From contig NZ_CP101162.1 in assembly GCF_024298865.1 (NCBI RefSeq), positions 186,001-250,000 of the forward strand: a stretch of DNA of 64,000 bases, written 5' to 3'. A model generated the notes under the pieces. It ran no database searches. It worked only from the letters and a program-made list of their open reading frames with translations, and had not been told where the DNA came from. The DNA is from Halorarius halobius. GTDB lineage: Archaea > Halobacteriota > Halobacteria > Halobacteriales > Haloarculaceae. The position numbers and the translations under genes are program-made. Position 1 is the first letter of the stretch; each line of letters opens with the position of its first letter. This document shows, piece by piece, positions 48,086 through 64,000 of this stretch.

Positions 48086-48592
48086 ATGCTACACGAAGGT
48101 ACGACAGCGCCCGACTTCACGTTGCCCGGAACGAGCCCGACCCAGGACGAGACGCAGGTCTCGGAGTTCACCCTCGAGAGCGCCCTCCAACGGGGACCAG
48201 TTATCGTCAATTTCTATCTATTCGATTTCCATCCCGAGTGTACCGAGAATATGTGCGAGCTCCACGATCTCGCCTGGTTCGACCTCGATGAATCTATCTC
48301 GGTGTTCGGTATCTCCACGGATCGCTCGTTCAGTCATCGAGCGTTCGCCGAGGATGAGCAACTCGCGTTCGCTCTCCTCTCGGATAGTGACGGGAGCATC
48401 GCCGACGCATACGACGTGTTCTACGAGGAATTCAACGGCCACAAACAGATCGCAAAGCGGTCGGTCTTCCTCATCGACACGGACAGAACGATTCGGTATG
48501 CCTGGTGCACGGAGGATCCGACCGTCCAACCGGACTGGTCCGCGGTCAAGGAAGCCCTCGATCAGCTGAAAACCGTCGAAGGGACGGCCTGA
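48086..48592 (+). CDS. Peroxiredoxin (AhpC/TSA family)
   Basis: 168 residues. FDFHPECTENMCELHDLAW gives the peroxidatic Cys with a second Cys four residues later, as in the paralogue at 40291. FALLSDSDGSIADAYDV and SVFLIDTDRTIRYAW are the other family strands. It is encoded 12 bases after the halocyanin fusion, so the two are one operon. No signal peptide, so peroxidase in the cytoplasm. Confidence 0.9.
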   Translation: MLHEGTTAPDFTLPGTSPTQDETQVSEFTLESALQRGPVIVNFYLFDFHPECTENMCELHDLAWFDLDESISVFGISTDRSFSHRAFAEDEQLAFALLSDSDGSIADAYDVFYEEFNGHKQIAKRSVFLIDTDRTIRYAWCTEDPTVQPDWSAVKEALDQLKTVEGTA

Positions 48593-49036: not shown

Positions 49037-49750
49037 CTAGTCGATCTGCTCGCGATACATCCCTTTGTGAAGCGTCCAGTCGTACTGTTCGTATCGGACG
49101 CGGGGACGGGCTTCGGCCTCAATGACATCGTACCGTTCGAGAAACTCGTAGATGCCGGATCGGCCGCCGAAGTCCCCGCGGTAGTAGAGGAACAGGCGGG
49201 TTACCCAAAGTTCGTCGTCCTCGCTATGATACGTCGACGACTGTTGGAGGAACGACCGGGTACTCGTCTCCAGTTCGCTGTCGATGTCGCTCGCCGTGTA
49301 CGCGACGATTGGCGGACAGCTCTCCGCGCCACAGTTCAGTGCAAAATGAATTCGAGGATCGACCTCGGGGAGGCGGTGACTACGCTCGAAGTCGCTCGGA
49401 AACGGACGGGGGATGTATCCGAGCCCGTATTTCCACTTCGACGACCGGAGAATCCCATGTTCGATATCATCGAGGCTGAGCACCGCCCCGGCGATATCGA
49501 TACGGTCCTCGCCGAAGAACCGTCGCTTGCTCTCGTAGAGAGATGGATCACGCTCGAGGTCGTACTGGACGAACGCGTTGTAGAGATTGAGCCAGAACGC
49601 CGTGGCAGCGTCCTCGTTCTCACCAAGCGCAGTGAGTCGAGATTCGGTCATCTCGGCGATCGTCGATCGGTAGGCGTCTGTCGCGTCACCGTGTTTGACG
49701 GCAGCGAGAAACTCGTGAGAGAGTTTTGCGAGGTCGTGGGGGTCACTCAT
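49037..49750 (-). CDS. DUF547 domain protein
   Basis: 237 residues. The DUF547 pattern AFWLNLYNAFVQYDL, SLDDIEHGILRSSKW, HFALNCGAESCPPIVAYT and WTLHKGMYREQID is complete. The conserved CGAESCPP and the downstream Tyr resemble a papain-like or glutamyl-cyclotransferase-like active site; function is unassigned. It overlaps no neighbour; the FAD oxidoreductase lies upstream on the same strand with 13 bases between, so an operon is likely. Confidence 0.85.
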   Translation of the reverse strand: MSDPHDLAKLSHEFLAAVKHGDATDAYRSTIAEMTESRLTALGENEDAATAFWLNLYNAFVQYDLERDPSLYESKRRFFGEDRIDIAGAVLSLDDIEHGILRSSKWKYGLGYIPRPFPSDFERSHRLPEVDPRIHFALNCGAESCPPIVAYTASDIDSELETSTRSFLQQSSTYHSEDDELWVTRLFLYYRGDFGGRSGIYEFLERYDVIEAEARPRVRYEQYDWTLHKGMYREQID

Positions 49751-51917: not shown

Positions 51918-52841
51918 ATGAGTTCACCCCAATCCCAACTCGACGCGGCACAATTCCTTGAGAATTTGCGGGACTTACGATACCGTGAAGTGATGATGGT
52001 CGCGGCGACCCTCGCGGTAGTCACCGGGTCGATCGTGTTCTTCCCCGGCGTGGACAACATCACGAAAGGCGTGCAGTCGAACGTCTCCGTCGGTCTCCTC
52101 GGGTTGTTCGTCGTCGTCGCGATCGTTGCCGGTGCGGTCAAGGGAATGATCGGGTTCGGATATGCTCTTATCACGACGCCCATCTTCGCGTCGGTAATCG
52201 ATCCGACGCTCGCGGTGGTCGTCCTCGCAATTCCACCGTGGATGATCAACATGTTCCAGATCGGCGAAACCGACACAGGATTTGGGTTCATTCGCGAGGA
52301 ATGGGTGTTACTGGGCCTCGCCATCATCGGGTCGATCCTTGGCGTATTCTTCCTCGCACAGTTCCAGACAGGTCCTATCGTTCCGTTCCTCATCGGACTC
52401 ATCATCTTCGGATACGTCGGCTTTCAGGTCGTGCAGAACTTCGTGACTATCGAGGAGGCGCATCATCCGATCGGCCTCAGCATCGCTGGATTTTTCGAAG
52501 GATTCCTGCTGGCCGCCGCCAATCTCGGTCCGCTGCTGCCGGCCTATTTCCACACCTTCGAGCGGGACATCGAGCGGTATATCGGTGGACTCTCGATGGT
52601 ACTGGGGACGATTTTCACGGTTCGGATTCTCCAGATGGTGTTTTTCACAGATCTCATGACGACCTATCGCCTCTGGCTCGGGTCGATCATCGCAGTCGTT
52701 ACGATTGTCGGGCTTCTGCTCGGGACGTACCTGCGACGACTGGAGATCGATGAGGAGAGATTCAACTGGTTCGTCATCGGACTTCTCTTTCTCATCTCGC
52801 TCAATATCTTTCGGAACACGATCCCAGCGCTCTTCCTCTAA
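51918..52841 (+). CDS. TauE/SafE family membrane transporter
   Basis: 307 residues with about eight hydrophobic segments. KGMIGFGYALITTPIFAS and FEGFLLAAANLGPLLPAYF are the two TauE/SafE repeat signatures. Likely anion (sulfite/organosulfur) exporter. It is followed within 10 bases by the convergent DsrE gene. The second family member after 36914-37900; both stand among sulfur/redox genes. Confidence 0.88.
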   Translation: MSSPQSQLDAAQFLENLRDLRYREVMMVAATLAVVTGSIVFFPGVDNITKGVQSNVSVGLLGLFVVVAIVAGAVKGMIGFGYALITTPIFASVIDPTLAVVVLAIPPWMINMFQIGETDTGFGFIREEWVLLGLAIIGSILGVFFLAQFQTGPIVPFLIGLIIFGYVGFQVVQNFVTIEEAHHPIGLSIAGFFEGFLLAAANLGPLLPAYFHTFERDIERYIGGLSMVLGTIFTVRILQMVFFTDLMTTYRLWLGSIIAVVTIVGLLLGTYLRRLEIDEERFNWFVIGLLFLISLNIFRNTIPALFL

Positions 52842-52850
52842 TCGGTCTCT

Positions 52851-53189
52851 TCAGGGTTTCAGATACGCATATCCGTCAGCTTGTAACCGGGACAGTTCGC
52901 CCACACCCGACGACACGAGTTCAACGCCATCGATGAGATCTGCTTCAGTAACACTCGTTCCCTTGATCGTGTTCCTGCACTGTTTGAACTGAACGCCCCG
53001 TTGCTGTAACTCGGCAACCCGTTCGCGCTGCGGTGAGTCTTCGAGTAAGAGAGTGAGTCCGCCACTATTCGCGACGAGTGCGACCGCATCTAGATCGATA
53101 GTCTCGTCGTCAAGGAGATTTGCAATATTCCCGACTACACGGTCATGCAGCTCCGGATCGTCGTTTGAATGGTGGAAAACCACGTTCAT
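52851..53189 (-). CDS. DsrE family protein
   Basis: 112 residues: MNVVFHHSNDDPELHDRVVGNIAN, LVANSGGLTLLLEDSPQ and QRGVQFKQCRNTIKGTSV, the fold and conserved cysteine of DsrE/DsrF/TusD-like proteins. The Cys can carry persulfide. Sulfur relay or sequestration is likely, in keeping with the TauE neighbour. Confidence 0.87.
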   Translation of the reverse strand: MNVVFHHSNDDPELHDRVVGNIANLLDDETIDLDAVALVANSGGLTLLLEDSPQRERVAELQQRGVQFKQCRNTIKGTSVTEADLIDGVELVSSGVGELSRLQADGYAYLKP

Positions 53190-55444: not shown

Positions 55445-56569
55445 ATGCAGCGACTCGTGACCCGGAGAGCCGTTCTTGCTGGCGTCGGAGTCGCTTCCCT
55501 CTCCGGATGCATCGGTAGTAGGCAACCTGGAACCCCTGGGGACACGTCGGCGAGTGGAGCGCCGGAAGAGGGCGGGCAATCACGTACTGGAGAGAACATG
55601 CCGCCAACGAAAGCAGAACAACTACTGCTTCCGATGGAGCCATCATCGCTCCGAGAACACGCAGTGTCCGGTGGGCCACCGAAAGACGGGATCCCCTCGA
55701 TCGACGAGCCAAAATTCGTCTCCGCCGAGGACGTTTCAGGACAGATCAAACCAGATGATCCGGTCTTCGGTCTCGCGACAGAGGGGACGGTGAAGGCCTA
55801 CCCACAATCGATCCTCGTCTTGCACGAGATCTGTAACGATATCGTAGATAACACCCCTGTGAGCGTCACGTACTGTCCATTGACAGGAACCGCGATGGGA
55901 TTCGAGCGCGGCGAGACGATGTTCGGCGTCTCCGGACGCCTCGTGAACAACAACCTCATCATGTACGACAGAGCGACGGAGACGTGGTGGCCACAGGTAC
56001 TCGCGACCTCGATCCCCGGGTCGTGGAACGAAGACCCACCAATCCGGTCGCTACAGGAGTTTCGCGTCATTTGGACGACGTGGGAGCGCTGGGTAAGCAA
56101 ACACCCGGATACGCAGGTGCTCTCTCGCGACACGGGATACGCTCAAAACTACGATCGAGACCCGTACGGGTCCTACAATCCGCGCGGCGGATACTATTCA
56201 CAGGAAGCAGCCCCGATGTTTCCGGCACTTTCCGACGACGATCGCCTCCAACCCAAGACGGTCGTCATCGGCGCTCGAACGAATAAAGGCGCTGCTGCCT
56301 TCGAGAAGCGGACGCTCAGAGAGACGAAGCTCATCGAGGGCAAACTGGGCGAGACGCCCGTGGTTGCAATCTACGAACCTGAGCTCGACACGGGCTACGT
56401 CTACCAGAATCCCGAACGCCAACAGGTCCAGTACCAGGACGGACACGTTGTAGACGGCGCTGGGGACACTCATTCACCAGAGGCGCTCCCCTTGGAACGG
56501 ATACACGCCTTCGACGCGATGTGGTTCGCCTGGAGCGGCTTCTATCCCGACACGACCCTATATGCCTGA
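55445..56569 (+). CDS. DUF3179 Tat lipoprotein (copy 2)
   Basis: 374 residues. Signal TRRAVLAGVGVASLSGC: twin arginine and lipobox Cys, so anchored outside the membrane. The DUF3179 core follows: GIPSIDEPKFVSA, AYPQSILVLHEICNDIV, VTYCPLTGTAMGFERG, FGVSGRLVNNNLIMYDR, TETWWPQVLATSI, and FDAMWFAWSGFYPDT at the C terminus. The only exported member of the three in the window. Overlaps the next membrane-protein gene by 8 bases. Function unknown. Confidence 0.87.
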   Translation: MQRLVTRRAVLAGVGVASLSGCIGSRQPGTPGDTSASGAPEEGGQSRTGENMPPTKAEQLLLPMEPSSLREHAVSGGPPKDGIPSIDEPKFVSAEDVSGQIKPDDPVFGLATEGTVKAYPQSILVLHEICNDIVDNTPVSVTYCPLTGTAMGFERGETMFGVSGRLVNNNLIMYDRATETWWPQVLATSIPGSWNEDPPIRSLQEFRVIWTTWERWVSKHPDTQVLSRDTGYAQNYDRDPYGSYNPRGGYYSQEAAPMFPALSDDDRLQPKTVVIGARTNKGAAAFEKRTLRETKLIEGKLGETPVVAIYEPELDTGYVYQNPERQQVQYQDGHVVDGAGDTHSPEALPLERIHAFDAMWFAWSGFYPDTTLYA

Positions 56570-57167
56570 ACCCAGTCATCCCACCATGATTAGTAGCGAC
56601 GTAGGGATATTCGGTCGGACAGGTGCGGCCCTCAGAGTTGCGGGAGGGCGATTGGATTCGCGCAGTGTTTTATTTGCGGCTGGAGTGAGCTATCTCGTCC
56701 TGTATCTTCTCACAGTGGGCGACCTCTCGTTCTCCAGCGGCGGAACTGGTCCGCTCACGATTCGAACCGTCGACGACCTCTCGCGTGCGTTCGCCAGCCT
56801 CGGGTTCTTTCGGTTCGGCGCAATCGCTGTCGTCTCACTCGGTCCACTCACGTACCTGTTTTCGCCGCTCAATCTGCTTGTCGCTCTCGTGCTTTCGAGC
56901 CTCGTCGGCGCGAACGTCGCGCTCACGTATCTCGGTCTGGTTCAACCGCGCGCCTGTGGGTTGGAATCCTCGACTGGTATTCTGGCCGGCATCCCCGCAC
57001 TGCTGTCCGGCGCTGCGTGCTGCGGACCGACAATTCTTCTCGTGATCGGCGTACAGGCCAGCGCCACGATTATCACGGGATTCCAGCTACTGATACCCAT
57101 CGCAGTCGTCCTCCTCGTCGGCAGCCTCCTGTTAGTCGGTCGCCAAGTCAATCCAGCCCTCCTATAG
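56562..57167 (+). CDS. Membrane protein with CCGP motif, coupled to DUF3179
   Basis: 201 residues (or 193 from the ATG at 56586). Four to five hydrophobic segments. The motif SGAACCGPTILLVIGV lies in a membrane segment near residue 148; a paired Cys before Gly-Pro in a membrane helix recalls mercury/thiol membrane proteins such as MerT, but this is only likeness. The 8-base overlap with the DUF3179 lipoprotein gene implies joint function. Confidence 0.65.
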   Translation: MPEPSHPTMISSDVGIFGRTGAALRVAGGRLDSRSVLFAAGVSYLVLYLLTVGDLSFSSGGTGPLTIRTVDDLSRAFASLGFFRFGAIAVVSLGPLTYLFSPLNLLVALVLSSLVGANVALTYLGLVQPRACGLESSTGILAGIPALLSGAACCGPTILLVIGVQASATIITGFQLLIPIAVVLLVGSLLLVGRQVNPALL

Positions 57168-57201: not shown

Positions 57202-58185
57202 TCAACCAGGCTGATAGAAGGAATCGGCTCCGTGGTCGTCCTGCCACGCAAACGCGAACAAGCGCCGGGCTGATAGCCGCTCAAGTTGCCGCCCGTCCGC
57301 AGCGCGACCGGTTGCAGGATTCCAAGTCGTTCCGTCGGCGACGACCTGGTTCTCGGTGAATTCAAACGATATCCCAGGGTCCTCGAACCCGTGGATACCG
57401 TCATCTTCAGTCGCGAATACAACGATATCTCGGTCTCCGACCGTAGTCTGTACGACACCACCGGCTGCTCTCACGCGAGTCAGCGGGAACCCGAGTACGA
57501 CGTCATCGACTTCGATACCGAGAACGACAGTCTTCGGGGAGAGGTCGTCATCACGGTTCCACTCGCGGCTGGTACCCGTTCCCCGGTGTGCGGCGAGCCC
57601 GAACCCCTCCCGAGAGAAGTACGCATCGTACGGTGAGGTGTCGTATTCGATCGATGCAGGCGAGTCGTCGGCGCTCGCGGCTTCGCTCTCTCCACCCGGT
57701 GGCTGGAGCACGATGCCGTCGGGGTACGACTTCCGAAACTCTTGCCAAGGAAGCAGCGTTCCTGGACGAACAGCGAGCGAATCGCCCTCGAAGGTACCAT
57801 TGATACATTCGCCACTGGACTGCTTCCACTCGCTGCCGGTCTCGCGGTCGTACATCACGAGGTCGTCGTCGGCAAGCTTTCCGGAAACACCGAACTCCAA
57901 CGTGTGCCCCTCGTGACGGCGGTCATAGACGACGGCGCTCCCACAGAGCGGGCACCACGTCACAGCGATTGGATCGCCACCACCGGTCTCCCCGTCGGCG
58001 TCGAGTACGTCGTTGACGATTTCGTGATAATGGAGGTACCGTACCGGGTACGCACGGGGTCGCCTGGGACCTTCGACCACGACGACTACATCGTCGGCAT
58101 CGCCGTCGTACGTGGCACCGAAGGACGGATCGTCAACGCTCGGAATCGCATCCTGCGGAATCACTTGACAGACGTTCACACCCAC
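57202..58185 (-). CDS. DUF3179 domain protein (copy 3)
   Basis: 327 residues. Same core as 41723-42718: AIPSVDDPSFG, AYPVRYLHYHEIVNDVL, WCPLCGSAVVYDRRHEG, FGVSGKLADDDLVMYDR, SEWKQSSGECINGTF and RLFAFAWQDDHG. Cytoplasmic. The GTG at 58185 and the GTG two codons later (58179) are both possible; alignment with copy 1 favours 58179. It converges with the membrane-protein gene and is 84 bases from the divergent ArsC-like gene. Confidence 0.87.
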   Translation of the reverse strand: MGVNVCQVIPQDAIPSVDDPSFGATYDGDADDVVVVVEGPRRPRAYPVRYLHYHEIVNDVLDADGETGGGDPIAVTWCPLCGSAVVYDRRHEGHTLEFGVSGKLADDDLVMYDRETGSEWKQSSGECINGTFEGDSLAVRPGTLLPWQEFRKSYPDGIVLQPPGGESEAASADDSPASIEYDTSPYDAYFSREGFGLAAHRGTGTSREWNRDDDLSPKTVVLGIEVDDVVLGFPLTRVRAAGGVVQTTVGDRDIVVFATEDDGIHGFEDPGISFEFTENQVVADGTTWNPATGRAADGRQLERLSARRLFAFAWQDDHGADSFYQPG

Positions 58186-58269: not shown

Positions 58270-58680
58270 ATGAACGTGGCGTTCGTCTGTATCCAGAACG
58301 CGGGACGGAGCCAGATCGCGACCGCGTTCGCGAAGCGCGAGCAGTCGCGACGTGGGCTCGAAGACGAAATCGAGATCGTCACGGGCGGGACGCGCCCGGC
58401 AATCTCACTCCACGACGTGGTCATCGAAGTCATGGACGAGCGCGGCATCGACCTGCGCGACCGGATACCGCGGAAGATCAGTAAGGAAGAGCTCGCCGAC
58501 TGCGAGTACGTCGTGGCGATGGGTTGTACCGCGGAGGGTGTCTGCCCAGCCGCCTGGAGCGAGACGAGTATCGACTGGGGGCTGGACGATCCCGAGACAA
58601 TGGAACTCGATGCAGTCAGAGATCTCCGTGACAACATCGAAACACGGGTCGAAACGCTGTTCGACGAGATGGCCCAGTGA
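58270..58680 (+). CDS. Arsenate reductase/low-molecular-weight phosphatase family protein
   Basis: 136 residues from MNVAFVCIQNAGRS. CIQNAGRS is the C-x5-R-S phosphate loop (catalytic Cys near residue 7). Asp of the DP-type acid lies in WGLDDPETM near 108. Usual ArsC/LMW-PTP length. Arsenate reduction with thioredoxin is common for this family; LMW phosphatase activity is the alternative. The upstream ORF extension (MPHTQKNSS) is rejected. Its stop lies 87 bases before the radical SAM start. Confidence 0.85.
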   Translation: MNVAFVCIQNAGRSQIATAFAKREQSRRGLEDEIEIVTGGTRPAISLHDVVIEVMDERGIDLRDRIPRKISKEELADCEYVVAMGCTAEGVCPAAWSETSIDWGLDDPETMELDAVRDLRDNIETRVETLFDEMAQ

Positions 58681-58767
58681 GAGGACAGCCGGTCTCCGAA
58701 GACGCATACACAGAGTTTCCTCCAGGTAACTCCCACATTTACCCGGTTCGTGTTCATTGTCGAACGC

Positions 58768-60219
58768 ATGTCCGAAGAGCGTACGCACCTTTCGTCTACG
58801 ACGAGTCTCTGTCCGACATGTCTCGAACGCGTCCCCGGCACCTACGAGGCCCGAGACGACGCCGTCTTTCTCAGGCGATCGTGTCCCGACCACGGAACGA
58901 CGAGTCGAAAAGTGTGGGAATCTCTCGATCACTGGCGCTGGGCACGACAGTTCGGCCCCGAAACTGACGTCGCCGACGATGGTGGCTCCGATACCGGAGA
59001 TCCGACCAGCGACACTGGCTGCTGTAGTGGGGGGACATGTTCGAGCGGGGGTGGCCTACGGGTCGACGGCGATCACGCCTGCCTCGCCGTCGTCGAAATC
59101 ACGCAGGACTGCAACCTCTCGTGTTCGTATTGCTTTGCAAGCTCCGGCCCGGGCGGGAAGCAACTACCGTTCGACGAGGTCGTCGACTTGCTCGACACTG
59201 TGCGGGCCGAAGGGGGGACTCGTCCGATCCAGTTCTCCGGCGGCGAACCAACGGTCCACGACGACCTTCCCGAACTCGTCGAGCGAGCGCGAGAGATGGG
59301 GTTCGAACACGTCGAAGTGAACACGAACGGCATCGAGCTCGCGACCCAGCAAGGATACGCCGAACGGCTCGCCGACGCCGGCGTGACCGCGATCTACCTC
59401 CAGTTCGATGGTGTCACACGCGACACCTACGAAACGATCCGGGCAGTCGATCTCCTCGAGATCAAACACGAGGCTATCGAGGCATGCCGGGACACGGGCC
59501 TCCCCGTTATCCTCGTGCCGACGGTGGTGCCGGGAACGAACGACGACGAGATGGGCGACGTCGTCCGGTTCGCCCTCGACAACCTCGACGTGGTCCAGTC
59601 GATCAACTTCCAGCCCGTCGCGCACTTCGGTCGCTACGCCGAGAACGAGGGCCGGTTCTCGCTCGACGAGGCTGCCCGGCGAGTCGCCGACCAGCTCGAC
59701 GGGCTCGAACCCCAGGACTTCCTGCCCGTACCCTGCTGTTCGTCGTACTGTCAGATGAGTACGGCCCTCGTGCCGAACGGGGAGGAGGGAGTGGTCCCGC
59801 TCACGGGGTTGCTCGACCTCGATAACTGGGATACGCTCTCTGGACTCATCGACGAGGCCGACTGGATGGAACTGCTCGCTGGCACCGCGGCCGGTCGAGA
59901 CACTGTCGAGGTCGCGAGCACCTGCTGTGGATTCGAGGTTCCCAGCGCGGGGCCCGTTCTCCCCGTCACGCTCACTGGATTCATGGACGCCGACGCAGCA
60001 GATGTGGACCGCCTCGACAACTGTTGTATCTCTGTACCGACGCCTGATGGCGATCTCGTTCCGTTCTGCGCGTACAACATGACGACCGAGGACGGGCGGT
60101 ACGCGCTCCGGAACCGCCACGGCTGGGGTGGTCGGGACAAGGTTGAGTCAGACGGATCACGTGCAACGGCCCCTGTCTCTGAAGGCGAGCCAGCCACCAC
60201 CGGTTCCGAGGACGACTAA
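58768..60219 (+). CDS. Cysteine-rich radical SAM protein (TrsS/Tes-like layout)
   Basis: 483 residues from MSEERTHLSST. N terminus: CPTC (near 15) and a downstream CPDHG, a zinc-ribbon-like module. A CCSGGTCSSGG cluster follows. The radical SAM core has CNLSCSYCFA (CxxxCxxC near 114), FSGGEPTVHDDLPEL near 153 and EVNTNGIELA near 190. The C-terminal region adds PCCSSYC, STCCGF and NCCISVP...FCAYN, enough cysteines for one or more auxiliary iron-sulfur clusters. The arrangement resembles radical SAM proteins of the TrsS and tetraether-synthase (Tes) groups. It makes or modifies a small molecule or lipid; a methyltransferase gene starts 4 bases after. Confidence 0.85.
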   Translation: MSEERTHLSSTTSLCPTCLERVPGTYEARDDAVFLRRSCPDHGTTSRKVWESLDHWRWARQFGPETDVADDGGSDTGDPTSDTGCCSGGTCSSGGGLRVDGDHACLAVVEITQDCNLSCSYCFASSGPGGKQLPFDEVVDLLDTVRAEGGTRPIQFSGGEPTVHDDLPELVERAREMGFEHVEVNTNGIELATQQGYAERLADAGVTAIYLQFDGVTRDTYETIRAVDLLEIKHEAIEACRDTGLPVILVPTVVPGTNDDEMGDVVRFALDNLDVVQSINFQPVAHFGRYAENEGRFSLDEAARRVADQLDGLEPQDFLPVPCCSSYCQMSTALVPNGEEGVVPLTGLLDLDNWDTLSGLIDEADWMELLAGTAAGRDTVEVASTCCGFEVPSAGPVLPVTLTGFMDADAADVDRLDNCCISVPTPDGDLVPFCAYNMTTEDGRYALRNRHGWGGRDKVESDGSRATAPVSEGEPATTGSEDD

Positions 60220-60223
60220 CACT

Positions 60224-60931
60224 ATGCAACAGCCACTCGACGCTATCCTCCGTGATCCGTGGCAGATCCTCGGGATGGTACTGGATGGGCCGCTTCATCC
60301 CGGGGGGAGGGAGGCCACGGAGACGCTGTTGGACCGAGCCGGAGTAGACGAGCAGACACGACTTCTGGATATCGGCTGCGGTGCTGGCGATTCGCTCCAC
60401 GTCGCCCGCGAACGGGGCGCTCGCGCCATCGGACTCGATCGCGAGCCACCGGGTACAGATGCCGTCTGCGGCGACATATCCGCGCTTCCGTTCCGCGACG
60501 ACAGCTTCGACGTGGTGCTCGGGGAATGTGTCTTGTGTCTCTCGCCTGCTCTCGATCAAACCCTGGGTGACGTCAACCGTATTCTCCACGCGGGCGGGCA
60601 ACTCGCCCTGTCGGATGTGACGGTCACAGGCGACACACCGGACCTGCCGCCACCGATCGACGAACTTCTCTGTCTCGATGGCCCTCGCGACCGAGACGAC
60701 ATCTGCCAGGAGATAGCGAGTGCGGGCTTCGAGATCGACGACGTGCAAACGCACCGGGAGGATCTCTTGGAAATGCGTGATCGGTTGCGGGAAGCGCTCG
60801 ATCTTGATCGACTCGTTGACGTGCTCGGTGACCGGGGAACACAGCTCCGAGACGGAGCCAGCCAACTCGAAACTGCCATCGAGGCAGGGCAGGTCGGCTA
60901 CGTCTCGATCGTCGCGACCAGCCAATCGTGA
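60224..60931 (+). CDS. Class I SAM methyltransferase paired with the radical SAM enzyme
   Basis: 235 residues from MQQPLDAILRDPWQIL. SAM motif LLDIGCGAGDSLHVAR near 48, GLDREPPGTD, and LPFRDDSFDVVLGECVLCLS motif II/III. ECVLCLS and a later Cys carry two cysteines near the presumed active site, as in arsenite methyltransferases and the TrsM type. The 4-base gap from the radical SAM gene shows one operon. Methyl acceptor unknown. Confidence 0.83.
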   Translation: MQQPLDAILRDPWQILGMVLDGPLHPGGREATETLLDRAGVDEQTRLLDIGCGAGDSLHVARERGARAIGLDREPPGTDAVCGDISALPFRDDSFDVVLGECVLCLSPALDQTLGDVNRILHAGGQLALSDVTVTGDTPDLPPPIDELLCLDGPRDRDDICQEIASAGFEIDDVQTHREDLLEMRDRLREALDLDRLVDVLGDRGTQLRDGASQLETAIEAGQVGYVSIVATSQS

Positions 60932-60955: not shown

Positions 60956-61618
60956 TCACCTGTGGCTCTTTCGAGCGCAGGCGACGAGTATCGACCCAGC
61001 GTTGAACGTAGTGACGTCCACAGTTCCGAACTCCCGCCGTAGGGCGGCCACCAAGTCGACCTGGGGTACCCAGTTCGTGGCCGATTCGGCGATTGGGGTG
61101 ATGATCGGGTTGAGAAGTGTCCACGGAATCCGCTGGAAGAGTTGCGCATCCAGAACAACGACACGACCGCCGGGCCGGAGTGCGGTCTCGATCGACCTGA
61201 TTGCCCGTTCCGGGTCGGTAACAGCACTGAGTGACATCGCGGCGTAGGCTGCATCGTGCGTGCCATCCGAAACCGGAGGGCGCCGTGCATCACCCCGCAA
61301 CACGTGGACGTTTTGCCATCCCTTCCGTCGAATCCGATCTCGAGCCGCGTGCGTCATACCGCGACTTGCGTCGATACCGACGATCGTCCCGTCCGGACCG
61401 ACGGATTGCCGTAGCGATTCGAAGCTGTTCCCCGTGCCACAGCCGATTTCGAGAACCGATTCGCCCGGCGTGAGATCGAGCGTCTCGATAGCCAGGTGGC
61501 GGAACTCTTTCTCACGGCCGAGAAATGCCATCTGATACAGAAGATCGAGTGCTCTCGGATGTCGACTCCACCAGTCGTAGATTCGACCCCCGTATTTTGT
61601 GTCGGTGCCAGTACCCAT
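60956..61618 (-). CDS. Class I SAM methyltransferase, UbiE/MenG-like
   Basis: 220 residues from MGTGTDTKYGGRI. YDWWSRHPRALDLLYQM, SVLEIGCGTGNSFESL, VGIDASRGMTHAAR, DAAYAAMSLSAVTDP and ALRPGGRVVVLD are the family motifs. Small-molecule (quinone-like) methylation is the usual role. It converges on the radical SAM-linked methyltransferase gene with 24 bases between. The longer frame start at 61696 is rejected. Confidence 0.83.
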   Translation of the reverse strand: MGTGTDTKYGGRIYDWWSRHPRALDLLYQMAFLGREKEFRHLAIETLDLTPGESVLEIGCGTGNSFESLRQSVGPDGTIVGIDASRGMTHAARDRIRRKGWQNVHVLRGDARRPPVSDGTHDAAYAAMSLSAVTDPERAIRSIETALRPGGRVVVLDAQLFQRIPWTLLNPIITPIAESATNWVPQVDLVAALRREFGTVDVTTFNAGSILVACARKSHR

Positions 61619-61717
61619 CTGTTGTGTACACACACGAGGAAGGGGCGCTACTTGATTCTCGTCTCTGCAACTTCGGGGAACAACTGGAAGGAGCAAGACC
61701 GCAAACCAAGAGAGAAG

Positions 61718-63186: not shown

Positions 63187-64000
63187 ATGGAGGAATTCGA
63201 CTTTCTGGTAATCGGTTCGGGCTCCGGGCTCGATGTCGCGAACGTAGCGGCGAATCAAGGACAATCCGTCGCTGTCGTCGAAAAGGGGCCGCTCGGTGGG
63301 ACGTGTCTCAATCGGGGCTGTATTCCCTCGAAGATGCTGCTCTATCATGCTGATGTCCTCGAAACAATCGAACGGGCCGGCGAGTTTCACATCGATGCGG
63401 ACGTGTCCGATGTCGCATTCGCCGACATCGTCAACGAGGTAAACGAAGAAGTGGACGCGGACGCGGAGTCGATCCGCAGCGGCCTGCGCTCGTCCTCCCA
63501 GCATGAGTTGTTCGAGGGCACGGGCCGGTTCGTGGACGATCGAACCGTCGAACTTGTCGACGGCGACGACGAAGGAACGCGGCTTCGAGCTGAGACCGTG
63601 CTCATCGCTGCAGGCACTCGACCGTCGATTCCGGACATCGATGGAATCGAGGACGTGAACTACCGCACGAGTACAGAGGCTCTTCAGTTGGAAACCCCTC
63701 CGGACCACCTCATTATCGTTGGCGGCGGCTACATCGCTGCCGAACTCGGACACTTTTTCGGCACGTTCGGGAGCGACGTGACGATTATCGGGCGTCGGCC
63801 GAATCTCCTCCCGGATGCCGACGGTGAGGTTGCCGAGGCCTTCACCGACCGATACGCTGACCGGTTCACCGTCCAGACGGGGTACACGGCGACATCGGTC
63901 TCCGAGGGGGGTGGCGAGATAACCGTCGAGGCCAGACCGTACGAATACGGAGACGACGGCGGCGTGGTGGATGACGGGGATGTCGTGACTGCAACTGGAG
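63187..64000 (+). CDS. FAD-dependent disulfide reductase, N-terminal part (runs off window)
   Basis: 271 residues are visible from MEEFDFLVIGSGSGLDVAN; the rest lies beyond base 64000. FAD motif at the start, redox disulfide GGTCLNRGCIPSKM near 41-46, ATGTRPSIP-like AAGTRPSIPDI near 140, and NAD motif IVGGGYIAAELG near 178. Class I disulfide reductase like 25304-26665 (dihydrolipoyl dehydrogenase/mycothione reductase group). The ATG at 63187 fits the conserved start. Confidence 0.87.
   Translation, partial: MEEFDFLVIGSGSGLDVANVAANQGQSVAVVEKGPLGGTCLNRGCIPSKMLLYHADVLETIERAGEFHIDADVSDVAFADIVNEVNEEVDADAESIRSGLRSSSQHELFEGTGRFVDDRTVELVDGDDEGTRLRAETVLIAAGTRPSIPDIDGIEDVNYRTSTEALQLETPPDHLIIVGGGYIAAELGHFFGTFGSDVTIIGRRPNLLPDADGEVAEAFTDRYADRFTVQTGYTATSVSEGGGEITVEARPYEYGDDGGVVDDGDVVTATG

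Follow-up and report, generated by a model that had tools for sequence, protein, structure and literature searches.

What do a cysteine-rich radical SAM enzyme and a methyltransferase, encoded side by side in the haloarchaeon Halorarius halobius, make together? The question comes from a stretch of 64,000 nucleotides (contig NZ_CP101162.1, positions 186,001 to 250,000), hereafter the window, for which a sequence-only reading had likened the two enzymes to TrsS/TrsM pairs and to Tes and had seen in their surroundings an arsenic and thiol setting. We hold with high confidence that the pair represents, in haloarchaea, a branch of the two-enzyme biosynthetic modules of the TrsS/TrsM type; its product is probably a sulfur-containing compound rather than an arsenic-containing one.

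The Gene Pair and Its Recurrence

The radical SAM enzyme (483 aa; 58768..60219, + strand) belongs to a clade of haloarchaeal proteins that has TrsS and Tes as relatives, and 4 nt separate its stop codon from the ATG of a class I SAM methyltransferase of 235 aa (60224..60931, +), which is closest to the TrsM/DVU_1556 family. An ArsC/LMW-phosphatase-like protein with a CxxNxxRS loop (PF01451, E 4.6e-26; 58270..58680, +) is encoded 87 nt upstream of the radical SAM gene. The coordinates and features of these three genes were re-checked in the window and all confirmed; the layout first described, a cysteine-rich radical SAM gene with a methyltransferase gene 4 nt on and an ArsC-type gene upstream, agrees with both coordinates and domain matches. 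The DUF3179 genes reported beside the pair are likewise there, both upstream: one lies at 57202..58185 (-; PF11376), the other at 55445..56569 (+), where it encodes what looks like a lipoprotein (lipobox LSGC, identified by eye) and is overlapped by the gene of a 201-aa membrane protein (56562..57167, +).

The sample used to follow the pair comprised 394 genomes of the order, 22 of them with a strong match to the radical SAM protein. Class A, the type of the window (~60-81% identity), was found in 16/394 genomes, and the more distant class B (33-40%) in 6/394. In each of the 26 loci whose sequence reaches far enough, the radical SAM gene is followed by a methyltransferase gene of the same family; where the gap was measured (17 loci), it ranges from -4 to +4 nt. 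Because this adjacency recurs in every locus that extends far enough, it is not due to chance, and the notion of a conserved pair holds well beyond the window. No methyltransferase was seen beside the radical SAM gene in the class B loci searched. Carriers of class A include Halobellus clavatus, Halorientalis pallida, Haloquadratum walsbyi J07HQW2, Halorubrum sp. CBA1125, Halovenus carboxidivorans and Haloarcula sinaiiensis, and spread by transfer is likely since several copies sit on megaplasmids. On a plasmid of Haloarcula halophila (loci L101, L102), two redoxin-DUF547/radical SAM-methyltransferase blocks share the same flanking genes. Bacterial relatives have the methyltransferase gene either downstream of the radical SAM gene, as in Chloroflexi (L127) and Mycolicibacterium (L209), or upstream of it, as in Deltaproteobacteria (L125) and Acetobacterium (L126).

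A Radical SAM Clade Outside Tes and TrsS

The best NCBIfam family of the radical SAM protein is TrsS (NF045646), at 352 bits and below the cut-off of 490. The Tes model (NF045702) gives 303 bits in a protein scan, below its cut-off of 450, and 268 bits in a genome search, where it covers positions 2-322 only. Neither ArsL nor ArsS is among the best 25 of the 58 NCBIfam matches, and Pfam returns only Radical_SAM (PF04055, E 2e-30), the N-terminal ribbon (PF23545, E 9e-17) and weak general domains. In the phylogeny, class A forms one clade with a long stem (support 100/100); the Tes clade excludes it (100/98), and so does the TrsS clade (98/97 to 100/98). The data do not reject a single clade of class A and TrsS (p-AU 0.50), and a position of class A as sister to Tes receives 62/24. 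The radical SAM protein falls within this separate clade, outside both Tes and TrsS, and clusters with no assigned enzyme. Strict TrsS membership was discarded on the sub-threshold score, the tree speaking clearly neither for nor against it. The likeness to TrsS/TrsM pairs and to Tes that had been noticed at the outset is borne out, TrsS and TrsM/DVU_1556 being the best families of the two proteins and the fold being that of Tes.

Cofactor sites were assigned by transfer from the paper on the Tes structure (PMC9433317). All of class A (n = 26) keeps two sites also present in Tes: the rubredoxin-like C-x2-C-x20-C-x2-H site (C15, C18, C39 and H42) and the radical SAM cluster motif CxxxCxxC (C115/C119/C122). 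The C-terminal region holds C323/C324/C328, C386/C387, C419/C420 and C434; further cysteines are C105 and C240. As C328, C419 and C434 are common to all complete class A members, TrsS and true Tes, we infer that these three residues are the likely ligands of a C-terminal [4Fe-4S] cluster. The AlphaFold model (mean pLDDT 72, pTM 0.78) matches Tes (PDB 7tol, 7tom) over its whole length in Foldseek (E ~1e-37, TM 0.69-0.72).

Against this common framework, several features separate class A from Tes (GDGT-MAS). The N-terminal auxiliary [4Fe-4S] motif, which in Tes consists of CxxxCxxC plus a His (PMC9433317), is missing: CPxxCGxC, seen in the script-parsable Tes and TrsS sequences, occurs in 0/26 class A sequences. 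The equivalent of Met439 is Thr403 in 25/26 of them and that of Tyr459 is Val423 in 25/25, while a segment of ~64 residues in Tes counts 40 in class A (~24 residues shorter). Met439 and Tyr459 are reported as completely conserved in 1000 homologues, yet neither is essential, and the M439A variant stays active (PMC9433317); their replacement thus argues against Tes membership, not against activity. Tes membership was rejected because of the sequence signature, the length of the segment, the score and the tree, and class A also differs from Tes in always being paired with a methyltransferase. With TrsS, the radical SAM protein has in common the rubredoxin-like ribbon, C240, and C105, CC386-387, C420 and V423, the last four of which are also found in archaeal TrsS sequences; it differs from TrsS in lacking CPxxCGxC and the Met that TrsS and Tes share.

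As a separate observation, 3/5 sequences of the Tes-related class B have Ser where conserved cysteines of the C-terminal cluster would stand (equivalents of C328 and C434) and Arg instead of the Met439 equivalent, which suggests a loss of the C-terminal cluster in these three proteins; judged by their weaker Tes scores, they are probably those of L067, L106 and L107 (genomes G076, G505 and G487).

Tes Matches Without Tetraethers

Zeng et al. (2022) found homologues of Tes in 20 Halobacteria for which no GDGT had been reported, and did not settle what these proteins do; among the carriers they named are Halobellus clavatus and Halorientalis regularis, whose published lipid analyses show no GDGT (PMC8941075). 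The sole Tes-model match in Halobellus clavatus, as well as in Halorientalis pallida, a relative of Halorientalis regularis, is the class A gene, and in both cases the match is partial and far below the cut-off. Halobellus clavatus carries a class A protein and no Tes, so that at least one class A carrier is reported to lack GDGT. A Tes-like tetraether role for the radical SAM protein appears contradicted by several of the sequence features described above. Two other Halobacteria genomes (L104, L105; G613, G370) encode a true full-length Tes, at 678 bits against the cut-off of 450.

The enzyme could still act on lipids in another way, for instance on archaeol chains through C-C coupling, cyclization or, with the methyltransferase, methylation, without building full tetraethers. 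The full-length structural similarity to Tes speaks for such a role, as do relatives on Persicobacter and Mycobacterium plasmids, whose radical SAM genes overlap or lie near genes of the LGT (diacylglyceryl transferase) family (L210:6247-8377; L247, L248), hinting at lipid substrates for these relatives. Considering that class A stands outside the Tes clade without the N-terminal cluster motif, the Met439 and Tyr459 equivalents or the ~24-residue segment, that Halobellus clavatus is reported without GDGT (PMC8941075) and that the haloarchaeal loci show no recurring lipid genes, we regard this explanation as unlikely.

The Methyltransferase and the Arsenic Question

The methyltransferase scores best with the DVU_1556/TrsM family (NF045667), at 130 bits for a cut-off of 155; the bacterial enzyme of L126 reaches 250 bits with the same model. 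Two of its cysteines, C102 and C150, do not vary across 15 relatives, bacterial TrsM-type enzymes among them, and in alignment they match, or lie next to, the SNCV and ECLAG cysteines of the solved ArsM 5evj. The conserved ArsM cysteines are C72, C174 and C224 of CmArsM (PMC5552862), of which the N-terminal one has no equivalent in the methyltransferase, leaving two of the three arsenic-site positions occupied. Like ArsM, the protein is a class I methyltransferase; unlike ArsM, it is shorter, is encoded with a radical SAM enzyme and obtains only 65 bits with the ArsM model (NF008823; cut-off 263). The cysteine pair might serve as a soft-atom site, which could equally bind arsenic or selenium.

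These cysteines, together with the ArsC-like gene 87 nt upstream in the window, also present upstream in L091, are what an organoarsenical pathway would have in its favor. In such a pathway the radical SAM enzyme would form a C-As bond, the methyltransferase would methylate arsenic, and ArsC would feed the route; an ArsM in which only two conserved cysteines are needed is named in the title of a reference cited in PMC8649762. In a census of 28 fetched loci, some of which come from close species and are not all independent, ArsC accompanies the pair at 2/28, namely the window and its closest relative L091, and because of this restriction the ArsC-like protein is probably accessory to the pair. 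Another ArsC-like gene (48%) is present at a different place in the host genome. Neither Acr3 nor a canonical ArsM was found in that genome, and a canonical ArsM is present in about 4/19 carriers. With the N-terminal ArsM cysteine missing as well, the arsenic reading is weakened, and organoarsenical biosynthesis seems distinctly improbable.

Genes Around the Pair

Thiol and redox functions recur around the pair. A DUF547 gene lies at most 2.1 kb from it in 16/28 loci (the copy of the window not counted), and a redoxin gene within ~3 kb in 15/28. DUF547 is so widespread (164/394 genomes) that its presence says little; its adjacency to the pair is the signal. In the partner DUF547 proteins C140 and C145 are invariant; in the copy of the window and its relatives, these two cysteines and the equally invariant H135 suggest a thiol active site. 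An AlphaFold model of DUF547, of good confidence (pLDDT 85), found no fold match in the PDB; our literature searches found no paper linking DUF547 to arsenosugars, and those on DUF547 mostly concerned plants. The window has its own DUF547 gene (49037..49750, -) and AhpC/TSA redoxin gene (48086..48592, +), 10 and 11 kb from the pair, respectively. That DUF547 protein is of a more distant type, with 44-48% identity to the partner copies elsewhere, and given also the distance of 10 kb its status as an orthologue of the partner is doubtful. The redoxin differs from those found near the pair elsewhere and is not their close orthologue. In Desulfobacterota (L128:1557-3615, L130:8926-10965, L133:829-2930), the gene immediately downstream of a short radical SAM gene of the Tes/TrsS type encodes a DUF547 or DUF547-like protein, the partner domain being the same as in Halobacteria.

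Other genes of the window have counterparts near the pair as well. A DUF3179 gene is found within ~7 kb in 6/28 loci; it adjoins the methyltransferase gene in Haloarcula sinaiiensis and Halalkalicoccus FCH27, and the couple of DUF3179 and membrane protein is also near the pair in L103, L129 and L215. Genes for dihydrolipoyl-dehydrogenase-like disulfide reductases are near it in 5/28 loci; the corresponding flavoprotein of the window, dihydrolipoyl dehydrogenase- or mycothione-reductase-like (63187..63999, +, cut by the window end), shares 77-81% identity with the copies near the pair in L100, L129, L214 and L215. A UbiE-like methyltransferase gene, convergent to the pair in the window (60956..61696, -; true start probably near 61618), is near it in 5/28 loci and directly downstream in four related ones, with 47-53% identity. 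In Haloarcula sinaiiensis, genes for TauE, DsrE, dihydrolipoyl dehydrogenase, redoxin and DUF547 stand on one side, and those for the radical SAM enzyme, the methyltransferase and DUF3179 on the other; the window similarly has genes for a TauE/SafE-type exporter (51918..52841, +) and a DsrE-family protein (52851..53189, -). Beside the Mycolicibacterium pair are genes for CcdA and a disulfide oxidoreductase. Of the arsenic and thiol setting proposed from the window, the thiol-redox half stands, through redoxin, DUF547, disulfide reductase and DUF3179, and the arsenic half lacks support, ArsC being rare.

The bacterial TrsS/TrsM loci present a different set of partners. As read from translations, L125 and L126 hold molybdenum-hydroxylase-like, C-GCAxxG-C-C and CoA-ligase-like genes, with an XdhC-like gene in L126, and TrsS has been listed as a predicted selenoprotein (PMC13188914). 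Since class A also has TrsS-type cysteines, the pair might, on the model of the bacterial trs operon, build or mature the cofactor of a redox enzyme or take part in selenium-related chemistry. Yet none of these partners recurs near the haloarchaeal pair, where DUF547, redoxin and DUF3179 are found instead; the radical SAM gene of the window has no in-frame stop; and literature searches found no paper on an experimental function of TrsS or TrsM. A cofactor or selenium role is, in our opinion, quite unlikely. The archaeal TrsS genes of L109-L113, which come from a single family of the same phylum, are adjoined by MtaA/CmuA-like and DVU_1553-like CoA ligase genes, and no TrsM neighbor was seen there.

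A Proposed Route to Methylthio Compounds

In Tes, a C-S bond between the substrate and the C-terminal cluster forms before C-C coupling, and a sulfur-containing lipid, freed by acid treatment, accumulates at limiting SAM (PMC9433317). By analogy, the 5'-deoxyadenosyl radical generated by the class A enzyme would take a hydrogen from a small molecule or a lipid, at an unactivated C-H of this substrate, and the resulting carbon radical would couple with one of the sulfides in the C-terminal cluster. Several Tes features being absent, the C-S bond would be released as a thiol and not resolved into a C-C bond. The partner methyltransferase would then methylate a soft atom, most likely sulfur, and the DUF547, redoxin, disulfide reductase and DUF3179 proteins might supply or protect the thiol or sulfane sulfur.

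We put forward C-H thiolation by the radical SAM enzyme, followed by S-methylation, as a tentative and still doubtful assignment, because the C-terminal cluster is kept, other Tes features are lost and a methyltransferase with a cysteine pair is always encoded alongside. In its most extended form, an undescribed haloarchaeal pathway in which a repurposed Tes-type radical SAM enzyme thiolates an unactivated C-H, possibly on an isoprenoid lipid chain, and S-methylation yields methylthio lipids or metabolites, the proposal is rather unlikely.

Conclusions and Perspectives

The finding in Halobellus clavatus explains why some Halobacteria seem to have Tes yet make no fused lipids, and tetraether production should not be read from Tes matches in genomes of the class A type. 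The full-length Tes of genomes G370 and G613 makes tetraether production worth testing in some Halobacteria. The pair offers a testable, partly cultured and salt-loving setting for TrsS/TrsM-type chemistry and, if the thiolation pathway proved true, would lead to a new class of methylthio lipids or metabolites.
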